Shown here: in pieces, positions 7,199 through 25,508 of the stretch | Numbering within the stretch: the stretch's first letter is position 1 | Layout: each line of letters starts with the position of its first letter | Program-made: the position numbers and the translations under genes | The notes under the pieces: model-generated | Databases searched by the model: none | What the model was told of the DNA's origin: nothing | The model's input: only the letters and a program-made list of their open reading frames with translations | Origin: Pseudomonadales bacterium | GTDB lineage: Bacteria > Pseudomonadota > Gammaproteobacteria > Pseudomonadales > Azotimanducaceae | Assembly (NCBI GenBank): GCA_022822135.1 | Contig: JAJECH010000052.1 | Span: 1 to 64,000 of the forward strand | DNA: 64,000 nt | Direction of reading: 5' to 3'

Positions 7199-10100
7199 CG
7201 CCACTTGCCAACCAGATCAGAGAGCAATCCATTGATCATGGCCCGATGGGGTTTTTCGCTCGAAATGCCGTCGCGGCAAACTTGCTCATGTCGGTATTTC
7301 TGCTCGGCGGTTTGTGGATGGCAACCAACCTCAATTCAGCCGTATTCCCAACCATCAAACCAGGCATTGTTGCAGTCAACGTGCCTTATCCCGGCGCAAC
7401 GCCCTCAGAAGTAGAAGAAGGGATCACGCGGCGCGTTGAAGAGGCCGTGGCGGGAATCCAAGGGGTCTACAGAGTACAGTCAGTCGCATCGGAAGGACGC
7501 GGCTCAATCAATGTTGAGCTGACAGATTTCGCCGATGAGGACGAGGTCTACGAAGACGTCAAATCCGCTGTTGATCGGTTGGTAGATTTTCCGCCACAAC
7601 GTGCGGAGGAAGCGGAGGTCACGATAGCAGAAGCCGTAAGTAGCGTGATGCAGCTAGTTGTCTCCGGACCTGTTCCCGAGACGGAGTTAAGAAGCGCAGC
7701 GGAGTTTTTGCAGGATGCCTTACTTGATCTTGACGGTGTATCGCTTGTCACACTCGACGGCGCCCGAGCGTATGAGATTTCCATCGAAATAAGCGAACGC
7801 ACGTTAAGGCAATACGGACTCACTCTCGAGCAAGTCGCTAATCGCATAAGACAGTATTCGGTAAACCTATCAGCCGGCGAGATCAAATCAAACGCAGGTG
7901 ATCTTCTAATCAGAACGAATAAGAAGCTGATGACCGGCGCCGAATTCGAATCAATTCCAATCCAAGCACTCCCTAACGGAACGACTCTACTCTTGCGAGA
8001 TATCGCAATCGTTCGCGACGCGTTCGTTGACGACCAGCTAAGAAATGAATTCAACGGCAAACCGGCGATCTTCGTTCAGGTAAGTCGCTCTGACAGCGAA
8101 GACGTTCTTGAAATAGCCGAGATCGTAAAGTCGAATTTAGATGGTATTGCGATTCCCTACGACGTTGATATTGAGATTTTCCAAGATCAAGCCGTAGTCT
8201 TGGAGCAGCGAATAGATCTTCTGGTACGTAATGGCATTCTTGGTTTTACGCTTGTTGTTACCTTCCTGGTACTCATGCTTGATCTGAAGCTTGCGATCTG
8301 GGTAGCGATGGGTGTTCCAATTTCATTCCTCGGAGCCATGATCTTTTTCGCACCTCTTGGCATCGAGATCACGATGGTCTCGTTATTCGGCTTGATCATG
8401 GTTTTAGGCGTCGTTGTCGACGATGCGATCGTCGTTGGCGAGAACATCGGCGCTGTACATGAAACCGGTTTACGCGGTGTCGGTGCGTCGATCGCCGGGG
8501 CTAAAGGCGTCTTTTCGCCTGTGAGCATCGGGGTTTTAACCTCAATGGCCGCGTTCGCCCCATTGCTATTTGCGACGGGAACGTTCGGACAAATACTTGG
8601 TGCGGTACCGCTCGTTGTGATCACCGTGCTGGTCATTTCGATGATCGAGGTCTTCCTGATTCTTCCGGCTCACCTATCCCACGAAAGTTACTGGAGCCGA
8701 TGGCCTCTGAGTGTTTTGCAATCCTTAATCGCATCAGGCGTACAGAGATTCCGCGATCGGATACTCGTTCCCGCGGCCGGCTGGGCCATTAAGCGACGGT
8801 ATTTAACGTTGCTGTTAGCGCTGGGATTCCTAGTCGCGTGCGGGTCGCTTCTCTATACCAACTCAGTTCGGTTTCTGTTCTTCCCCGACATCGAGTCAGA
8901 TTCGGTCTCTGCAAACCTGATCTATCCTGTCGGCACACCTTATAACGCCACCGAGGAAGGCGCAGTACTACTAAGGAACGCAATCCTCCGTGTCAATGAG
9001 GCAGCAGGTGGTACGGAAATTGAATCGCTCAGCATGGTGGTTGGAGGCGGTCTCCAACTAGCGGGTGGCCCGGGAGGACCAGGTGGGGTCTCGCAAAATA
9101 GCAATCGAGCTCAGGTCATCTTAGAGCTTGCGGACGAGAGTATCCGACAGAACAGTTCGGCGCAAATCGAACGACTCTGGCGAAGCGAGGTAGGCAACAT
9201 TCCCGGTGCGGACGCACTGCAGTTCACTTCGTCGTTCATCGGTGGCTCCAACATGGCTTACCAGCTTAGCCATCGTGACAGTGATGTCCTATTACGTGCA
9301 GTAGATATCCTGAAAACTCGTTTAGCAGAGGTCGATGCACTAGTTCAGATTACCGACGATTTCGATCTCGGGAAACGTCAATTCGATATCGAGCTGACTC
9401 CCGCAGGCGAAGCTGCAGGGCTCACGAACCTTGACGTATCTCGCCAGTTACGTCAGAGCTATTTCGGCGAGGAAATCCAGCGGATTCAACGAAACCGCAA
9501 CGAAGTAAAAGTGATGGTTCGCTTCCCTACCGATGAACGTAGCAGTACACGCGATTTTGCGAATTCACGTATTCGATTAAACGACGGCACGGAAGTCCCG
9601 CTCTTTACGGTAGCGCGTATCGAAGAAAACCGAAGTTTTTCATCCATTACTCGCATTGATGGTCGACGTGTCGTCGAAGTGAGTGCCCGAATCGATAGTG
9701 CTCTTCGTACGCCGAATCAGGTCATAGCTGAAGTAAACGAAACCGTATTACCGGCGTTAACGGCGGAATTCCCGCGGTTGCTCGTGAGAGAGGCAGGATT
9801 CGCACAAGAACAAGCAGAAGACTTCGCTCAATTAGGGTTGCTAGCAGCATCCTCTATCTTATTGATGTACATACTTTTAGCGAGCCAGCTTCGCAACTAT
9901 TCCATGCCATTTACCGTGTTATCCGCGATTCCATTCGGCGCAGGCGGTGCAATTGTGGGACATTGGTTACTCGGCTTCGATCTTTCATTCGTCTCGATAT
10001 TTGGCATCATCGCATTAAGCGGTATCGTCGTAAATAACTCCCTAGTACTGACCGATTTGTTCCTACGACTGCGTGCGGCAGGTATCGGATTCGAAGAAGC

Positions 10101-17518: not shown

Positions 17519-17595
17519 TGGCGGAGCGGACGGGACTCGAACCCGCGACCACTGGCGTGACAGGCCAGTATTCTAACCAGCTGAACTACCGCTCC
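17519..17595 (-). tRNA. tRNA-Asp (GUC)
   Basis: The minus strand folds into a full cloverleaf: acceptor GGAGCGG/CCGCTCC with discriminator G and encoded CCA, D-arm AGTTCAGCTGGTTAGAAT, anticodon arm CTGGC-CTGTCAC-GCCAG with anticodon GTC, and T-arm GCGGGTTCGAGTCCCGT. Length is 77 nt including CCA. It follows tRNA-Val on the same strand with a 39-nt spacer, so the two are probably co-transcribed. Confidence 0.96.
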
Positions 17596-17634
17596 GAAAG
17601 GACAAATCGCTGCCAAAATCGCAGTGATTTTGCA

Positions 17635-17710
17635 TGGTGGGTGTTGCAGGGGTCGAACCTGCGACCTGTGGCTTGTAAGGCCACCGCTCTCCCAGCTGAG
17701 CTAAACACCC
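17635..17710 (-). tRNA. tRNA-Val (UAC)
   Basis: The minus strand gives a full cloverleaf: acceptor GGGTGTT with encoded CCA, D-arm AGCTCAGCTGGGAGAGC, anticodon arm GTGGC-CTTACAA-GCCAC with anticodon TAC, and T-arm GCAGGTTCGACCCCTGC. Length is 76 nt with CCA. First gene of a tRNA-Val/tRNA-Asp unit, an arrangement common in Gammaproteobacteria. Confidence 0.96.
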
Positions 17711-17860
17711 ACTCGATAGCGGACGCAATTTTACTAACGCATAGGTCAAGATGATCTTCCGGATAGCATCACAAGAATTGCGATGTGTCACCAGTACACA
17801 ACCTGCAATCGCTAACATAATGGCACCCTCTTACGATATTAATGAAGGAACAAACTACCA

Positions 17861-18565
17861 ATGTCGACCGTCACTGACGATCTAATCGAGCAACTAAAAG
17901 AACTGGATACTCCAACCGTATGTAATGCGTTAGAGTCGGTGGTGCCGCAACGTCGTGGCTACGGTTACACCACGGATCCACTTATATGCACCCGTCCTGA
18001 GCTCGGAAGCATGGTTGGCTACGCACGTACGGCATGTATCCGTGCCATGCATCCATCAGACGTTCGCGGTGAAGCCGCTCGCGATTTGCAACATGGTTAC
18101 TACCAGTACATTGATGACGGTCCGAAACCCGCCATCATCGTGATCCAAGACTTAGATGGCGAGTCACGTGGCTACGGCTCATACTGGGGCGAAGTGAATA
18201 GCAACATCCATTGCGGATTGGGTTGCGTAGGCTTAGTCACCGACGGTAGCGTTCGCGATATACCCGATATTGCGCCTGGTTTCCAAATGCTCGCCGATCG
18301 AATCGGTCCCTCACACGCGTTCGTTCATCCAGTTGCTTACGGAGGCGACATAAACGTTGCCGGGATGCGTGTATCCAGTGGTGACCTTATCCACGCGGAT
18401 CAACACGGTGCCGTAGTAATTCCCAACGACAAAGCACACGAAGTACCTGATGCGGCGGCCGCGATCGCTCGCCGAGAACGTGTCATCATCAATGCGGCAC
18501 AGGAAGACGGATTCGATTTCGATCGATTGAAGAAAGCTTGGGGAGACGCAGCTGAAGTTCACTAG
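17861..18565 (+). CDS. RraA-like / HMG aldolase family protein
   Basis: A 234-residue member of the RraA-like fold shared by 4-hydroxy-4-methyl-2-oxoglutarate/4-carboxy-4-hydroxy-2-oxoadipate aldolases and the RNase E inhibitor RraA. Visible landmarks are the N-terminal LDTPTVCNALE, the active-site block GCVGLVTDGSVRDI (Gly, Arg and Asp of metal and pyruvate binding) and GDLIHADQHGAVVIP near the C-terminus. The aldolase class cleaves oxo-acids to pyruvate using a divalent metal. It is the first gene of an operon with the thioredoxin-fused protein 9 nt downstream and the UGSC selenoprotein after it. That context suggests small-molecule metabolism rather than RNase control. Exact substrate unknown. 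Confidence 0.85.
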   Translation: MSTVTDDLIEQLKELDTPTVCNALESVVPQRRGYGYTTDPLICTRPELGSMVGYARTACIRAMHPSDVRGEAARDLQHGYYQYIDDGPKPAIIVIQDLDGESRGYGSYWGEVNSNIHCGLGCVGLVTDGSVRDIPDIAPGFQMLADRIGPSHAFVHPVAYGGDINVAGMRVSSGDLIHADQHGAVVIPNDKAHEVPDAAAAIARRERVIINAAQEDGFDFDRLKKAWGDAAEVH

Positions 18566-18574
18566 GTCATCAGC

Positions 18575-20131
18575 ATGACAGCAGTTCAACCGTTCACCTT
18601 AACGGATCTAAACGGTACCGACCACAGTGTACCAACGGGTACGAAAACACTGTTGTGTTTCGTGAAAGAAGACTGCCCGACCTGTAATCTTGTAGCGCCG
18701 TTATTGGAAGCCGCACACCAGGAAGGCGATGCGGACGTGATACTCGTTGGTCAAACATCTGACGGTAACGAGCTGCTTGCAAAGACCCACAACCTTTCAG
18801 TTCCTGTACTAGACGACTCAACTTTGATTGTGTCATTCGCCTACGAACTCGATACCGTACCTCATGCAATACTCCTTGATGATGTCGGCGAACCGATCAA
18901 AGAAGTCATTGGATTCGACAAGTCTGAATGGCACGAGCTGCTCTGTGACGACATTAGTGATGTTGAGATCAATTGGACCGAACTTCCAGATTGGCGGCCT
19001 GGCTGTGGATCGTTAACGCAAGATCCCATCATCGCCGAAAGGCTTCGAGCCGAAGCAGAAAACAGCCCGCTGCGTGCCCGTCGCATAGAGATCGCGTCAC
19101 ACGACGATGTTCACGAGTTTTTATTCGATCAGGGATTTACGGATGGTCTCCCAGTCGTACCACCTACACCGGAACGCGTCATTCGCATGCTTGGCGGTAT
19201 TGATCGTGACCCGCAGGATGTCGTCTCAACAATCCCTCCGAATCTCGCACCCGCGACGGTCGAAAAGATTGCGATCAACGCGGTGCTAGCCGGTTGCAAA
19301 CCTGAGTATCTGCCTGTCGTTATCGCTACGATCGAAGCGATGTGCACCGACGAGTTCAACTGCCACGGTGTATTCGCGACGACCATGGGCGGAACCCCCG
19401 TCATGATTCTGAACGGTCCAGTACGACATGCACTGGACATGAATATGAAGTTGTCTGCGTTAGGTCAAGGAACTCGAGCTAATGCCGCGATTGGCCGCGC
19501 AATTCGTCTCGCCGTACGAAATATCGGCGGCGCTAAACCTGGTGGCACAGAACGCTCGACGCTCGGTAATCCCATGAAGTTCACTATGTGCTTTCCCGAG
19601 TGGGAAGAACGGAGCCCATGGGAACCTCTGCACGTCGAGCGCGGTTTTGAGCCAGAGGACTCTGTTGTATCGATCTTCGCAATGTCGAGCGGACCGGCGC
19701 AAGTCGTCGATCAGACGTCGCGGTCTGCTGAAGCCCTGGTTGGAAGTTTCGCGCTGTCCATGCGAGCGGTTCACGCTGTCAAAGCGCATCGAGCTGGGGA
19801 CACCATCTTGGTCATCAGTCCCGAGCACGTGGACACAATTCAACGTGATGGGTGGTCCAAGGCAGACATACGCGCACGAATTCAGGAAGTATCTAGCGTA
19901 CCATTCCGCGATCTTATTGCAGATTCAACGAGTGGTGTTGGCATACCAGCACAGGCGGCAGCCAACATGACAGAAGAGCAATTAGATCGTCCAATACCTA
20001 AGTTCGCTTCGGAAGATCGCATCCACATCGTGGTTGCAGGATCTGAAGCGGGTAAATTCTCTGCCGTGTTTCACGGCTGGGCAAGTGGCAGTATGGGGTC
20101 TATCCCCGTGTCACGCAAAATCACCATGTGA
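18575..20131 (+). CDS. Thioredoxin-like domain fused to a UGSC-associated domain
   Basis: A 518-residue two-domain protein. Residues about 1-135 form a thioredoxin-like domain with the redox motif CPTC at C34/C37 (KEDCPTCNL) and a cis-Pro motif TVPHAI. Residues about 155-518 form a conserved domain of unknown function, starting FTDGLPVVPPTPERV and including VEKIAINAVLAGCKPEYLPV, NCHGVFATTMGG and SPWEPLHVERGFEPE. From memory of family patterns, proteins with this second domain are commonly encoded beside UGSC proteins; a search should confirm it. No signal peptide is present, so it acts in the cytoplasm. The selenoprotein gene starts 18 nt downstream. A reductase or enzyme partner for the Sec protein is the simplest inference. 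Confidence 0.72.
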   Translation: MTAVQPFTLTDLNGTDHSVPTGTKTLLCFVKEDCPTCNLVAPLLEAAHQEGDADVILVGQTSDGNELLAKTHNLSVPVLDDSTLIVSFAYELDTVPHAILLDDVGEPIKEVIGFDKSEWHELLCDDISDVEINWTELPDWRPGCGSLTQDPIIAERLRAEAENSPLRARRIEIASHDDVHEFLFDQGFTDGLPVVPPTPERVIRMLGGIDRDPQDVVSTIPPNLAPATVEKIAINAVLAGCKPEYLPVVIATIEAMCTDEFNCHGVFATTMGGTPVMILNGPVRHALDMNMKLSALGQGTRANAAIGRAIRLAVRNIGGAKPGGTERSTLGNPMKFTMCFPEWEERSPWEPLHVERGFEPEDSVVSIFAMSSGPAQVVDQTSRSAEALVGSFALSMRAVHAVKAHRAGDTILVISPEHVDTIQRDGWSKADIRARIQEVSSVPFRDLIADSTSGVGIPAQAAANMTEEQLDRPIPKFASEDRIHIVVAGSEAGKFSAVFHGWASGSMGSIPVSRKITM

Positions 20132-20149
20132 ACTTCAAGGAGGTTATGC

Positions 20150-20668
20150 ATGAACACCATTCTTGATCCGACCGACGAGCGTAAGCCAGTTGTACGTTCG
20201 ATCACGACGCGAGCGGAGCGTCTCGAAGGTCGGCTCGCGTTGTTAGACATTCGCAAACCGCGTGGCAACATCCTGTTGGATCGCTTGGAAGAACTGTTGG
20301 CCGAACGCTATCCCAAGCTTGAGGTTAAGCGTTTCGAAAAACCAACCTTTACGAAACCTGCGCCTACGGATGTTCGTCAGAATATCAAAGCGAACGCGGA
20401 TCTAGTCGTTGAAGGATTAGCGGACTGAGGATCCTGTACCACGTGCAGTTTGCATGACACGGTCTGGTTTGAAATCCAGGGGATTCCAGCAGTAAGTATC
20501 GCTTCAACGGAATTCGTTGACGCAGCAGAAACACAGGCGCAAGCTCTAGGGATGGACGACGCGAAGTGCGTCTTCGTCCCACATCCTATTCAGGATGCAA
20601 CAGATGAAGAGATGCGACTGAAGGCAGAAGCGTGTGTCGATGAGATCGTCGCGGCCTTAACCCAATAA
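20150..20668 (+). CDS. UGSC-family selenoprotein (in-frame TGA read as selenocysteine)
   Basis: The frame opened by ATG 20150 (good RBS AAGGAGG just upstream) reaches TGA at 20426-20428. It continues in the same frame to a TAA at 20666-20668, giving 172 residues with position 93 as the TGA codon. Around the TGA the protein reads GLAD-U-GSCTTCSLHDTV, exactly the UGSC motif of the selenoprotein family found earlier in marine metagenomes. Both halves are conserved-looking protein: KPRGNILLDRLEELLAERYP before, DTVWFEIQGIPAVSIAST after. Sec93 with Cys96 and Cys99 would form a redox site. A hairpin suited to SECIS lies just after the TGA. No selA/B/C/D genes are in the window. If Sec is not inserted, only a 92-residue fragment is made. 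The molecular function of the family is not established. Confidence 0.88.
20429..20463 (+). promoter_or_regulatory. Bacterial SECIS-like hairpin after the UGA codon
   Basis: Immediately 3' of the TGA, CGTGCA (20442-20447) pairs with TGCATG (20451-20456) around a GTT loop. The outer ACC (20438-20440) and GGT (20461-20463) extend the helix past small bulges. The loop starts with G, 19 nt after the TGA, within the spacing reported for bacterial SECIS elements recognised by SelB. Seen by eye only; no folding energy was computed. Confidence 0.7.
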
Positions 20669-20673
20669 AAATC

Positions 20674-21858
20674 TCAGCCGATCGTACCGGCGTCGTAGAG
20701 CGCGTCGATGCGATCGGTTTCTATATCAAACTCCATCAACAATTCGCGCGTGTGTTCGCCTGGATTTGGTGCGGCACGCTCGAACGTCTCTGCATGCGGA
20801 TGCGCAGACATGTTGATCGGGGAACGGATGAGACTGACGTCTCCAAGTTCTTTATGTGGCGCATTTCGCGCCATTTTTAGATGTCTCGCTTGAGGATTTG
20901 TAAATCCTTCGCCAACATCAAGAACAGGTCCGCACGGAACGCCGTTTGCATTCAGTTTTTCAATAAGCTCATCAACTGAGAAACTCACTAGCGCTTCGTT
21001 GATAGCTTCTTCAAGCACATCGCGATGCTTGTTTCGGTCTCGTGGGGTAAGGAAGCGTTGATCCACTCGCAACACCGTATCCTCTATGGCGTCTAAGAAA
21101 CTACCCCACATACGCTCCGTCGGTGCTGCAATGTTCACATATCCGTCCTGACACTGAAATGTCCCCATTGGGAAGTTTGTCGGGTGGTTGTTACCTTGTT
21201 GCTTTGGCACATCTCCTAGCATCGTAAATCGGGCACCCTGAAAGTCGAGTTTGCAGAGCATGCCTTCAAGCAAAGAGGTGTGAACCCACTGCCCTTCGCC
21301 CGTTTTCTCCCGGTGAATCAGCGCGAGCAAGATACCCTGACCTAGGAACATTCCCGCAGTTGTATCGCTAATTGCGATGCCAGCTCTTACCGGGCCTCCG
21401 CCAGGATGACCCGTAATCGACATTAGTCCTGACATGCCTTGCACTATTTGGTCTACGCCTGGTCGATCGCTATATGGACCATCCTGACCAAAACCGGAGA
21501 TACTTGCATAGATCAACCGTTTGTTGTGTTGTGCGAGCGTGTCGTAGTCGACCTTGAGCTTGTGTTTCACAGGTGCGCGGAAGTTCTCAACCACGATATC
21601 TGCACGTTTAACCATCTCGATGAACAGGGCATGGCCCTCGTCATGCTTCAAGTTGATACACAAACCGCGTTTGTTGCGATGAAGGTTCTGTTCATCGGGG
21701 CCATGTCGACCTCCCGTTATGGAGCCGGATTTGACGGGTGGCGGTTCAATCTTGATGACATTTGCACCCCAATCAGCAAGTAATCGAACGGCGGTAGGAC
21801 CTGCGCGCGCGATCGTTAGGTCAAGTACCGTAATGTCCGCGAGTGGCAGTGAGCTCAT
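20674..21858 (-). CDS. CaiB/BaiF family (class III) CoA-transferase
   Basis: Moves CoA between carboxylic acids through an enzyme-bound aspartyl-CoA anhydride. The N-terminal pattern ITVLDLTIARAGPTAVRLLA followed by DWGANVIKIEPP is diagnostic. The catalytic Asp sits in GIAISDTTAGMFLG near residue 170, and LNLKHDEG/VVENFRAP match the family. Start at ATG 21858 (MSSLPLADI); an ATG four codons earlier is also possible. It ends a run of five same-strand genes (MaoC, amidohydrolase, acyl-CoA dehydrogenase, MFS, this gene), suggesting activation of the acid that the operon degrades. Its stop lies 5 nt from the stop of the convergent UGSC gene. Confidence 0.9.
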   Translation of the reverse strand: MSSLPLADITVLDLTIARAGPTAVRLLADWGANVIKIEPPPVKSGSITGGRHGPDEQNLHRNKRGLCINLKHDEGHALFIEMVKRADIVVENFRAPVKHKLKVDYDTLAQHNKRLIYASISGFGQDGPYSDRPGVDQIVQGMSGLMSITGHPGGGPVRAGIAISDTTAGMFLGQGILLALIHREKTGEGQWVHTSLLEGMLCKLDFQGARFTMLGDVPKQQGNNHPTNFPMGTFQCQDGYVNIAAPTERMWGSFLDAIEDTVLRVDQRFLTPRDRNKHRDVLEEAINEALVSFSVDELIEKLNANGVPCGPVLDVGEGFTNPQARHLKMARNAPHKELGDVSLIRSPINMSAHPHAETFERAAPNPGEHTRELLMEFDIETDRIDALYDAGTIG

Positions 21859-21879
21859 GGTGTCTAGCATGATTCGAAA

Positions 21880-23094
21880 TTAAGGATTAGTCCGAGTCTG
21901 TAGGAAAGCAGGTGCGATCTGGACTTCATTGCCTTGTGAAGGTGAATTGGGGATATTCTGCGATAGGACAAGCGAACAAATCGCAAATGCCGTGCCAATC
22001 AGAAAAACTGCCGCATGTGATTCCAACCAAATGCTGCCAAGGATGACAGGAATGATGACTGCGGCAATGTGATTAATCGTAAACGACACGCCTGCAGTCG
22101 ATGCTATATCCGCCGGCTCAGCAATCTTCTGGAAGTACGTCTTGATCGCGATACCCATCGCAAAGAAAAAGTGATCCAGTACATAGAGCAAGCCTGCTAA
22201 CCACGCAGATTCGACGAATGCGTAACAGCTGAAAATGACCGCAAGACCAACATACTCAACTGTGAGTGCGCGTCGCTCGCCAATTCTTCCTATCCATGCA
22301 CCAATCCGCTCGGCCGCAAGCGCATTCACAAGGTGGTTCACGAGCAGTAACGCGGTCATATTGGCAACAGAAAAGCCGAAGCGTTGAACTAGCAAGAACC
22401 CGGCGAATGCCACAAAAATCTGTCGACGTGCGCCGCTCAAAAACGTTAAGCCATAGTAGAGCCAATACTTACTCCGTAGCACGATATGCTTACGTTGCTC
22501 AACTCGTGACCTAAACCGGGGCGCCGCGACAGCAAGGAATATTGCTAACGTTAGCACGATACCACCCGCGATTGCGTAGATGGTTGAGTAGTCAAAGTCC
22601 AACCACTTTACGAGCGCGAACACGGTCAAAAACGTACAGAACGCGGTGATTGAACCCACGGATATGAGCGCGCCTAATAACCTTGGCGCAACTCGTTTAG
22701 GCAACCACTGTAGTGACAGTGACTGACGAACTGTTTCGAAGTAGTGGAACCCAATCGACATCAATACGACAGCGAAATAAAGTCCGTATATCGTTGGTAG
22801 AAATCCTGTTATCGCAATTCCTATACCGAAAACTGCTAACGCAATGACCGCGAAGACCTGCTCTCGGAGGATAAACAGGATGAAAACTGCAGTGAAAGCG
22901 AGAAAGCCAGGCACCTCGCGGATGCTCTGCATGACACCGTTTTCGAAGCCATTGATCCCGATTTGCTCAACCGCGTAGTTATTGAGTAGCGCTTGCCACA
23001 CCGACATACCGATCGGCATTGCAATGCTGGCGATCACGAGAAATGCGAACGGAGATCGAATCCGCCTCTCCATCATCGCGGAAACGCGAGACAT
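21880..23094 (-). CDS. MFS transporter
   Basis: A 404-residue integral membrane protein with twelve hydrophobic segments, assigned to the major facilitator superfamily. The first helix (SPFAFLVIASIAMPIGMSVW), a charged central loop around FRSRVEQRKHIVLRSKYW (between helices 6 and 7) and the second six-helix set are all visible. The substrate is not indicated by sequence. Position between the acyl-CoA dehydrogenase and CaiB genes on the same strand suggests uptake of the organic acid handled by the operon, but export cannot be excluded. Confidence 0.82.
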   Translation of the reverse strand: MSRVSAMMERRIRSPFAFLVIASIAMPIGMSVWQALLNNYAVEQIGINGFENGVMQSIREVPGFLAFTAVFILFILREQVFAVIALAVFGIGIAITGFLPTIYGLYFAVVLMSIGFHYFETVRQSLSLQWLPKRVAPRLLGALISVGSITAFCTFLTVFALVKWLDFDYSTIYAIAGGIVLTLAIFLAVAAPRFRSRVEQRKHIVLRSKYWLYYGLTFLSGARRQIFVAFAGFLLVQRFGFSVANMTALLLVNHLVNALAAERIGAWIGRIGERRALTVEYVGLAVIFSCYAFVESAWLAGLLYVLDHFFFAMGIAIKTYFQKIAEPADIASTAGVSFTINHIAAVIIPVILGSIWLESHAAVFLIGTAFAICSLVLSQNIPNSPSQGNEVQIAPAFLQTRTNP

Positions 23095-23183
23095 CGTTGA
23101 GCTAATCAGCGGACCTACCTAATGTATGAGCATTCATGTTCTACTTCGGGTGACATCCGTATCACCCTTTTTTTGCGATATGT

Positions 23184-24329
23184 TCAGTCAGGTAAACCGA
23201 GGATTCGCTTCGCGATGATGTTCAACTGAACCTCAGACGTTCCGCCCTCAATCGAGTTGGCTTTTGAACGCAACCATTGACGTGTGACGCCAAGGTCTGC
23301 TTGATCGAATTCCTCGCCCGTCCAACCAAGACCATTCACACCCATCATCTCGACGAGTAAGTCGTATCGGTTCTTATTTTGTTCTGTGCCGTAGTACTTA
23401 AACAGCGACGACATGAACGTTGGAGCGACGCCTGCTCGGGTCTCTTCGCCTGAACGTCGGGTCGTCAATCCAAACGCATGATCATTCATGCGGTGATGGG
23501 AAACTCGATCACGAAGATCTGCTTCTGCGATCTTCCCACTCTCTTCGCCAACGCACTCTTTCGCGATCTCGTCGATGGTCTTAGCGCGCGGGCCACCGCC
23601 ACCGCCACCAATTCCACCGATCGAGGTTCTTTCATACTGAAGCAGACGTTTCGCGACCGTCCATCCCTTATTGACCTCACCGACGATATGACTCTTCGGT
23701 ACTCGTACATCGTCCAGGAACGTCTGGCAAAAAGGCGACGCGCCGCTGATTAGCAGAATCGGCTTCACGCTCACACCCGGTGATTTCATATCGAACAGAA
23801 TGAAACTAATCCCTTCATGTTTTGGCGCATCTGGATCGGTCCGAATCAGGCAAAACATCCAATCTGCATGGTCTGCGCCTGAAGTCCAAATCTTCGACCC
23901 ATTGATGATGTAATCGTCGCCATCAGACACCGCGCGGGTTTGGAGACTAGCTAAATCGGAGCCAGAGCCAGGTTCGCTGTAACCCTGACACCAAACGATT
24001 TCTTGACGAACAATCCTTGGCAAGTGCTGCATGCATTGCTCTTCGGTACCGAATTCAAGCAATGCAGGACCGATCATCGTCAGACCCATACCGCCTACTC
24101 CAACGACTGCATGATTCTTACGCAGCTCATCCTGAAGGATCGCAATTTCCGGCTTCTCCAAACCGGCTCCACCGTATTTAGTTGGCCATGTCGGCGCCGA
24201 CCATCCTCGCTCGAAGTACTTTTGCGACCAGTCTTGCCAATCGTCTCGTGTCGCCTGCTGACCCGGATTGCGAATGCTCTCAGGACAGTTTTCAGCGATG
24301 AATGATTGGATTTCCGCTCTAAATTCCAT
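23184..24329 (-). CDS. Acyl-CoA dehydrogenase
   Basis: A 381-residue FAD enzyme that introduces an alpha-beta double bond into acyl-CoA. Signatures: WCQGYSEPGSGSDLASLQTR (FAD and substrate-binding loop), INGSKIWTSGADHADWMFCL, and the C-terminal EGGTSEVQLNIIAKRILGLP that contacts FAD. A central glycine stretch (GGIGGGGGG, about residue 235) is an unusual low-complexity insert in the loop before the helical C-terminal domain. The gene is 12 nt downstream of the amidohydrolase gene. With the MaoC-like hydratase it forms a partial beta-oxidation-like set. Substrate unknown. Confidence 0.93.
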   Translation of the reverse strand: MEFRAEIQSFIAENCPESIRNPGQQATRDDWQDWSQKYFERGWSAPTWPTKYGGAGLEKPEIAILQDELRKNHAVVGVGGMGLTMIGPALLEFGTEEQCMQHLPRIVRQEIVWCQGYSEPGSGSDLASLQTRAVSDGDDYIINGSKIWTSGADHADWMFCLIRTDPDAPKHEGISFILFDMKSPGVSVKPILLISGASPFCQTFLDDVRVPKSHIVGEVNKGWTVAKRLLQYERTSIGGIGGGGGGPRAKTIDEIAKECVGEESGKIAEADLRDRVSHHRMNDHAFGLTTRRSGEETRAGVAPTFMSSLFKYYGTEQNKNRYDLLVEMMGVNGLGWTGEEFDQADLGVTRQWLRSKANSIEGGTSEVQLNIIAKRILGLPD

Positions 24330-24341
24330 TTTCTGTAACTC

Positions 24342-25508
24342 CTAGCTCTGGATTTCGACCCCACGTGCAACAACACAAACGGGCTTCTGCAGGACGTCTA
24401 AATCCTTCAATGGATCTCCTTCAACAAACACCAAGTCGGCAGCAAGACCGACCTTGATCGCGCCTGTCTCGTTGTGAATGTTAAGTGCACGCGCGGCGTT
24501 GCTAGTTGCGGTTCGCAAAACTTCAACAGGTTGCATATCCGCATACCGCGCAAACACCGGTAATGCTCGAGGCAAGTCATGGTGCCGTACGTTCGGGATA
24601 CCGGCATCCGTTGATGCAATGAACTGCACACCCGCGGCTTTCATTTCTCGAAACTGTTGCCTCACGACCCCAAGATGTGCGGGAGTGAACTGCATGAAAC
24701 GTGACCAGTTCGCATTTACCGTTGGCGAGACCCACGTTTTACGTGCTGCCATTTCGACGACTACATCATGCAGGTAGTCGCCTCGGCGACCATCCTTGTC
24801 CATCCAGGAACAGTGTTCGACGGTATCCACGCCTGCATATACCGCATTCGCGATGCCTTCACTGCCGTGACAGTGCGCCGCGACCGCGAAATCTCTATCG
24901 TGGGCGTAAGAAATGATTTCAGTTAGTTCATCCTGGGTAAATTGCGCACGGCCAGGATGGCTCTTAGCGGTGAACATTCCGCCAGTTGCCATGATTTTGA
25001 TTAGATCGACACCTTTCTCGCTGTTTCGATCGACCACCTGGTGTGCTTTATTTGCGTCAGGTACGTCACCACCCCAAAAATGACAATGACCTTCTATTGA
25101 CGTTATAGGACGGCCAGCGCACAGTAATCGTGGACCTTGAATCTCACCATTGTTGATCTGATCGCGTAATTCCAACTCGAGCCAATTTCCGCCACCAAGG
25201 TCGCGTGCACACGTGATGCCAGCTTTGACCATGTGCTTAGCACGCTCAGGCATCTTCTTCCTAATGTCGTCATCTGACTGAGCAAGTTGCTTTTGGACAT
25301 CGTGGATACTAGGATCTAACACCATGTGCACGTGACTATCAATCAAGCCTGGCAGGACCGTCAAGCCAGCACAATCCTTTGCCTGTGGATGCTCTATCCC
25401 AACACCAGTAATGCGGCCGGATTCGATTGTCAACGAGGTCTCGGGTCGGTACGTACCCCCTTCCCCGTCCCAAATCCGAACGTTCTTATAGGCAACCGTT
25501 GATGTCAT
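24342..25508 (-). CDS. Metal-dependent amidohydrolase
   Basis: A 388-residue TIM-barrel hydrolase of the amidohydrolase superfamily, closest in appearance to imidazolonepropionase/prolidase-like members. The metal motif HxH is in VLPGLIDSHVHMVLD. Further His ligands occur in FAVAAHCHGSEG and DTVEHCSW, and the terminal Asp in FIASTDAGIPNVRHHD. The N- and C-terminal beta-sandwich strands (VLVLP-like start, LAADLVFVEGDPLKDL end) flank the barrel. It hydrolyses amides, lactams or related bonds; the substrate is not determinable. No signal peptide. Within an operon between a MaoC-like protein and an acyl-CoA dehydrogenase, which suggests release of an acid for CoA-linked breakdown. Confidence 0.88.
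   Translation of the reverse strand: MTSTVAYKNVRIWDGEGGTYRPETSLTIESGRITGVGIEHPQAKDCAGLTVLPGLIDSHVHMVLDPSIHDVQKQLAQSDDDIRKKMPERAKHMVKAGITCARDLGGGNWLELELRDQINNGEIQGPRLLCAGRPITSIEGHCHFWGGDVPDANKAHQVVDRNSEKGVDLIKIMATGGMFTAKSHPGRAQFTQDELTEIISYAHDRDFAVAAHCHGSEGIANAVYAGVDTVEHCSWMDKDGRRGDYLHDVVVEMAARKTWVSPTVNANWSRFMQFTPAHLGVVRQQFREMKAAGVQFIASTDAGIPNVRHHDLPRALPVFARYADMQPVEVLRTATSNAARALNIHNETGAIKVGLAADLVFVEGDPLKDLDVLQKPVCVVARGVEIQS

Follow-up and report, generated by a model that had tools for sequence, protein, structure and literature searches.

A UGSC-family selenoprotein gene in a Pseudomonadales bacterium, its constant partner protein and a proposed thioredoxin-driven reductase

A reading frame in the window (the whole 64,000-nucleotide stretch of a Pseudomonadales contig analyzed here) continues through a TGA codon, and the residues at and after this codon would spell Sec-Gly-Ser-Cys. 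This raises the question of whether the TGA is decoded as selenocysteine (Sec) and, if so, what the resulting protein does. The 2008 GOS paper places the UGSC family in marine metagenomes (PMC2398784), and UGSC proteins are described as being among the most abundant selenoproteins of marine and freshwater metagenomes (PMC2398784, PMC9312934). A 2026 review still lists them as uncharacterised (PMC13188914). The sequence-only reading of this locus had likewise assigned it to a family known from marine metagenomic selenoproteome work with undescribed chemistry. Both statements agree with the literature found, and the gene neighbourhood now adds a strong lead on the chemistry.

Decoding of the in-frame TGA

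The features of the gene are as follows.
20138..20144, plus strand: AAGGAGG ribosome-binding site of the UGSC gene, read from the sequence
20150..20668, plus strand: UGSC-family selenoprotein gene, 172 aa, Sec at residue 93, matching PF24696 and NF041046 over its full length
20426..20428, plus strand: in-frame TGA decoded as selenocysteine (Sec93); Cys at 13 homologous loci, TGA in nearly all relatives
20435..20437, plus strand: Cys96 codon, the conserved second residue of U-x-x-C
20442..20456, plus strand: bacterial SECIS-like hairpin CGUGCA-GUU-UGCAUG, identified by a synonymous-site freeze with a Cys-homologue control and by covariation

The frame starts with ATG at 20150, passes the Sec TGA at 20426-20428 and stops with TAA at 20666-20668, so that it is open through the TGA and contains U93-G-S-C96, as had been read from the letters alone. 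When the 172-residue translation was searched, hmmscan matched it to PF24696 (UGSC family) with 168.4 bits against a cut-off of 25, covering profile positions 1-172 of 172, and NF041046 (UGSC family (seleno)protein) matched over its full length with 172.5 bits against a cut-off of 125. Scored alone, the part before the TGA reached 57 bits for PF24696 and 55 bits for NF041046, the part after it reached 90 and 96 bits, respectively, and the two parts mapped to consecutive stretches of both profiles. Each half therefore matches separately, which bears out the claim that both sides belong to one conserved protein. Relatives having Cys in place of Sec read across the site uninterrupted, so the second half is joined to the first in these homologues. 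The gene upstream ends with TGA (20129-20131) as a normal stop, indicating that the genetic code is not reassigned.

The genome of the window (3.75 Mb, 97.6% complete) was found to contain the complete Sec-insertion machinery, whose absence would have spoken against the selenoprotein reading. The tRNA-Sec scored 71.1 bits, with ARAGORN in agreement, selB scored 411.6 bits, and the adjoining selA scored 544.8 bits. The selD match (256.7 bits) lies inside a 739-residue open frame (L055, G000:C26:161753-162655), probably the known Ndh-SelD fusion. Among 38 related genomes, UGSC was found in 18, all of which (18/18) have selA; 11 of the 38 have no selA, and UGSC was found in none of these.

A hairpin with a G-starting loop had been proposed 19 nt after the TGA, and it was found at this distance, with the loop G at 20448. 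In folding energy, the 50 nt following the TGA proved ordinary and no different from shuffled sequences (z 0.05), so that energy was not used as evidence; the hairpin is instead backed by synonymous-site conservation and covariation. In 15 Sec-encoding relatives, the mean pairwise synonymous difference was 0.17 in codons +1 to +11 after the TGA compared with 0.59 over the remaining codons, a value as low was reached by 0 of 100000 randomly drawn codon sets, and codons +5 to +8 (ACG TGC AGT TTG) showed zero synonymous changes. In contrast, nine Alcaligenaceae Cys homologues used as a control gave 0.54 for the same codons and 0.50 elsewhere (p = 0.70). Across 18 divergent Sec loci, standard pairs occupied 86% of cells and both-side changes occurred at three pairs. 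The covariation score was 0.202, compared with 0.116 ± 0.027 after shuffling (0/500 shuffles as high) and with at most 0.103 for slid versions of the hairpin. Rfam returned no family at E <= 1 over 17800-22000. Because synonymous sites are nearly frozen in Sec relatives but not in Cys homologues, the hairpin is under strong selection as RNA.

The reading of the TGA as a true stop in a decayed or split gene has next to no chance of being correct, even though standard gene callers would split the locus and a gene annotated on an Acidovorax plasmid seems to finish at the corresponding TGA, since 34 of 55 non-redundant members keep the frame across the TGA and another 18 have Cys, the Sec machinery is complete, the hairpin is conserved, and the UGSC profiles match on both sides. 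Sequence comparison confirmed that the window locus is a genuine selenoprotein gene and a member of the known UGSC family. It resembles that family in its full-length match, its UGSC motif, the use of Sec with rarer Cys forms and its link to a second domain; the window protein itself shows no difference.

A Sec gene on a mobile plasmid is functional only in Sec-decoding hosts. Sec-type copies were observed on plasmids. Plasmid p2-T1 of Acidovorax sp. T1 (L074, NZ_CP021650.1), a conjugative IncP plasmid, carries a UGSC gene with an in-frame TGA at ~7830-8340, where the short deposited gene appears to end at the Sec codon. Plasmid pTAV4 of Paracoccus versutus (L080, NZ_CP035287.1) carries an unannotated Sec-type UGSC gene adjoining a partner gene.

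Active-site residues, predicted fold and remote relatives

The sequence-only reading had proposed a redox centre of Sec93, Cys96 and Cys99. Position 93 was Sec or Cys in 51/53 non-redundant relatives, and position 96 was Cys in 51/53. The window protein does have UxxCxxC, but its last Cys (Cys99) is shared by 20/53 relatives, with mostly G, W, A or T elsewhere. Since Cys99 is poorly conserved and thus not a family feature, the conserved centre reduces to Sec93 and Cys96.

The 55 non-redundant members comprised 34 Sec forms, 18 Cys forms, two forms with Met-Gly-Thr-Ser and one without an assignable site, and in several fused paralogues the motif was broadened to U-[GS]-x-C. The tree of these members requires nine changes of the Sec label (8-10 across bootstrap trees), although well-supported branches alone force only two. 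Judged from these sequences, Sec and Cys swap repeatedly across the family. A pattern scan of contigs found 13 Cys homologues in Bordetella, Advenella, Parapusillimonas, other Burkholderiales and Actinomycetota; the patterns contained Cys only, so only Cys homologues were found by it. In the fused homologues of Sporomusa termitida (L075:6329-8053) and Vibrio europaeus (L076:6419-8104), Met-Gly-Thr-Ser replaces U-G-S-C, and the genes adjoin those for aconitase X and DUF126. In these proteins, a UGSC-like domain is joined to the partner domain described below, but the active-site position holds neither Sec nor Cys. They would represent a redox-dead or differently working branch, suggesting that the scaffold can act without Sec or Cys.

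Further variants were observed. Two actinobacterial Cys-type proteins (L043:7899-8726 and L044:8001-8771) have an extra C-terminal stretch bearing C-x-x-C. A single genome (G369) holds nine Sec-type loci (L059, L063-L070; L136-L143) with the motif broadened to U-[GS]-x-C, and selA is located between two of them (L140:8593-9999). Several of the nine copies are probably exported, as judged from their apparent N-terminal signal peptides.

The AlphaFold2 model of the UGSC protein, built with 14 sequences, was confident (pLDDT 90.7, pTM 0.85) and contained five strands alternating with five helices, with Sec93 placed between strand 85-91 and helix 94-109. The best fold matches among those listed were flavodoxin-like folds and alpha/beta layers akin to them (FMN reductase, flavodiiron protein, lumazine synthase and receivers), with VIA Z scores up to 11.0 over 125 residues at 2.9 Å, and none of the 50 Foldseek or VIA matches listed was a thioredoxin-fold chain. 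The fold is thus predicted to be flavodoxin/Rossmann-like and is probably not thioredoxin-like. The likely Trx-like fold mentioned in the GOS paper (PMC2398784) was not supported by the model and the matches listed.

We then compared UGSC with GrdB and PrdB, the Sec-bearing proteins of glycine and D-proline reductase. The PDB sequence search gave no relative of UGSC or PrdB-like proteins, PF07355 did not match the window protein (hmmscan against Pfam returned PF24696 only), and a shallow profile comparison of UGSC with GrdB/PrdB was not significant. A deep comparison of 53 UGSC with 14 PF07355-type proteins, however, gave an hhalign score of 43.7 and a probability of 83%, with the Sec residues aligned to each other and the GIPxV and HP/YPLG strands downstream of them also in register. 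Column-shuffled targets scored at most 21.4, and 18 unrelated families at most 26.4. Masking the motif left scores of 35.0-38.4 with the register kept, and masking the GIPAV strand left 27.3. Homology of UGSC to the Sec-bearing part of GrdB/PrdB is therefore likely on profile evidence but not proven.

PrdB-like (PF07355) selenoproteins of the same bacterial family (L047-L054) were observed in 6/38 relatives and not in the window genome, and Cys forms of ~320 aa (L107-L113) occur elsewhere in the same phylum. Like UGSC, they have Sec or Cys-x-x-Cys at the equivalent strand-helix position; they differ in their length of ~260-410 aa and in matching PF07355 above its cut-off.

The partner protein, its thioredoxins and the gene neighbourhood

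Upstream of the UGSC gene lie two genes of an apparent operon, and downstream lie genes on the opposite strand.
17861..18565, plus strand: RraA-like aldolase-family protein; its gene opens the apparent RraA-partner-UGSC operon, which has gaps of 9 and 18 nt
18575..20131, plus strand: partner protein, 518 aa, with an N-terminal thioredoxin-like domain (Cys34-Pro-Thr-Cys37) and a partner domain of ~345 residues
19085..20122, plus strand: partner domain, residues 171-516, without a Pfam or NCBIfam name, linked or fused to UGSC in all intact loci
19295..19297, plus strand: partner Cys241 codon (motif AGC), invariant in alignment A4 and Ala in some fused paralogues (L066, L069)
20674..21870, minus strand: class III (CaiB-type) CoA-transferase, a recurrent neighbour
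21880..25508, minus strand: MFS transporter, acyl-CoA dehydrogenase-like and amidohydrolase-like genes, which neighbour UGSC in most loci of the genus; the MFS gene was tested with Pfam and the other two were named by reading the sequence

The partner domain adjoins or is fused with UGSC at every intact locus examined. Its profile matched the same 18/38 genomes as the UGSC profile, each match being beside a UGSC copy, and in L025 and the UGSC loci of G369 the two form a single reading frame. No intact UGSC without a partner was found; the partnerless copies seen (L029, L030/L033) are degenerate, being broken up or having no intact U/C-x-x-C site. Outside the thioredoxin-like domain, the partner had no Pfam or NCBIfam match, and its fold search yielded nothing convincing, with a best Z of 6.2 over 76 residues. 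Searched against PDB sequences, the partner profile gave only 'BURRH' repeats, which were judged spurious since no stretch passed alone. The domain is probably the 'Unknown_1' domain that the GOS paper describes as fused to UGSC (PMC2398784), an identification that we infer. Bordetella-group partners have a tail of the C-S-x-G-T-C type.

The N-terminal domain of the partner matched Redoxin, AhpC-TSA and Thioredoxin_8, all below cut-off, gave weak ResA/TlpA fold matches, and contains CPTC. The model of this domain is of low confidence; the weak but agreeing matches, together with the CPTC motif, suggest that it is thioredoxin-like. Elsewhere, separate thioredoxin genes accompany the pair. The gene order is trxB-trxA-partner-UGSC on an Arthrobacter plasmid and in the Nocardioidaceae locus L043, where TrxB scores 335 bits (just short of the 343-bit cut-off) and TrxA contains WAPWCTRC; in Nonomuraea (L044), the order is trxA-partner-UGSC. 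In Roseovarius, trxB comes after UGSC, and in Variovorax it lies upstream. In Bordetella and Advenella, it comes after genes for a CoA-transferase and TctC (TRX_reduct at 383 and 382 bits, respectively, cut-off 343). In Haloterrigena, a gene for a related pyridine-nucleotide oxidoreductase adjoins the partner. In the window, the thioredoxin-like domain is fused into the partner. A separate trxA beside the partner in one lineage and a thioredoxin-partner fusion in another are a classic sign of a functional link.

The trio of RraA-like, partner and UGSC genes is nearly constant in the genus of the window, with RraA ~1.4 kb further off in L116, and it also occurs in G023, which belongs to another genus. 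Same-genus trios mostly lie beside the CaiB-type CoA-transferase, MFS transporter, acyl-CoA dehydrogenase-like and amidohydrolase-like genes. In other lineages, the recurrent neighbours are CoA-transferases, LysR regulators, TctC, TRAP or ABC transporters and PEP-mutase-family enzymes. Because the operons hold CoA-transferase, acyl-CoA dehydrogenase-like, RraA-like aldolase, transporter and LysR regulator genes, their content points to the catabolism of an organic acid, or a small molecule related to one, that the cell imports. Annotated phosphosulfolactate synthase genes near UGSC in Arthrobacter (L071:5561-6349) and Natrinema (L072:5293-5760) are a possible hint of a substrate. Just upstream of the window operon, tRNA-Asp and tRNA-Val genes occupy 17519-17710 on the minus strand; a 78-aa plus-strand ORF at these positions (GLEPATTGVTGQYSNQLNYR) was rejected as a spurious translation of them.

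A proposed two-part selenoenzyme and its alternatives

The UGSC pair has Sec with a second Cys, a dedicated partner, a dedicated thioredoxin supply and, in some genomes, several copies, and we therefore propose a two-part, thioredoxin-driven selenoenzyme. We consider it fairly probable that UGSC and the upstream partner domain are its two halves and that it works like glycine or proline reductase. Glycine reductase draws on NADPH by way of thioredoxin reductase and thioredoxin, and GrdB-type subunits carry UxxCxxC (PMC13188914, PMC6778437, PMC3091704). Published grd clusters also contain trxA and trxB (PMC6778437), and it has been proposed that PrdB uses its Sec to attack the substrate carbon, after which a Cys resolves the selenoether (PMC3091704).

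By analogy, NADPH would supply electrons, which thioredoxin reductase and then thioredoxin (here, the fused CPTC domain) would hand on to a Sec93-Cys96 selenosulfide. This selenosulfide would lie where the helix that follows the third strand of the predicted flavodoxin/Rossmann-like fold begins. The partner would hold the substrate for attack by the selenolate, leading to cleavage or reduction of a bond, in line with proposals for GrdB/GrdE and PrdB/PrdA. Cys96 would then free the product, and thioredoxin would reset the enzyme. Electron supply by thioredoxin is supported by gene linkage, whereas substrate binding by the partner, attack by Sec and bond cleavage are suggested by the analogy.

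The comparison with GrdB/F/H of glycine, sarcosine and betaine reductase and PrdB of D-proline reductase (PF07355, TIGR04483) has two sides. In both groups, a core strand leads into U-x-x-C, and a helix, a GIPxV strand and an HP/YPLG-type strand come next; both have operons that include genes for thioredoxin and its reductase, both have several paralogues per genome in some hosts, and a two-subunit enzyme is predicted for UGSC as well. However, the window protein has 172 aa, compared with 242 (PrdB) to 436 (GrdB) in C. sticklandii (PMC3091704). There is no direct PF07355 match, the third residue of UxxCxxC is not conserved in UGSC, and its partner is not recognisable as GrdE/PrdA. A partner of the GrdE/PrdA type would be expected to have a Cys-derived pyruvoyl group; Cys241 of the UGSC partner is invariant in alignment A4 but replaced by Ala in some fused paralogues. 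The hosts also differ, and UGSC stands in a CoA-transferase context.

Two other readings were weighed. A non-redox enzyme (isomerase, lyase or hydratase-like), in which Sec or Cys serves as nucleophile or ligand and thioredoxin merely keeps the enzyme reduced, would accommodate the MGTS forms beside aconitase X/DUF126 in Vibrio europaeus and Sporomusa termitida, as well as the RraA-like aldolase and CoA-transferase genes that adjoin the pair. We regard it as unlikely, since near-invariance of Sec/Cys at position 93 and of Cys at position 96 fits a two-residue redox cycle, and dedicated trxB as well as trxA is repeatedly associated with the pair. Somewhat less likely again is a general thiol-disulfide oxidoreductase or peroxidase of thioredoxin-like fold that serves redox homeostasis instead of catabolism. 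UxxC is a thioredoxin-type motif, trx genes lie near the pair, and the GOS paper states such a fold as likely (PMC2398784). Nevertheless, strands and helices alternate five times in the confident model, whose best listed matches are flavodoxin-like, lumazine-synthase and receiver folds; the operons contain CoA-transferases, transporters and LysR regulators, not stress genes; and a dedicated 345-residue partner domain is unusual for a thioredoxin-type reductant.

Returning to the Grd/Prd-like reductase, it is a tentative suggestion, held at a little less than even chances, that UGSC and its partner form a second, largely unrecognised class of such Se-dependent substrate reductases across Proteobacteria, Actinomycetota and haloarchaea, with substrate-specific paralogues. 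The members seen here in Actinomycetota and haloarchaea were Cys forms. The features that appear to be new are how constantly the partner occurs, the coupling to thioredoxin, the fold predicted here and the broader U-[GS]-x-C motif of fused paralogues; in the open-licence literature, we found no description of the partner constancy, thioredoxin link, fold or relation to GrdB/PrdB.

The constant partner, the thioredoxin supply and the probable link to GrdB/PrdB turn an 'unknown selenoprotein' into a testable enzyme. Operons with CoA-transferase, transporter and LysR genes offer clues for guessing substrates, and the Cys forms in culturable Advenella, Arthrobacter and Roseovarius allow tests without Sec insertion. 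If the proposal is true, thioredoxin-driven reductive bond cleavage would not be limited to anaerobic amino-acid fermenters.
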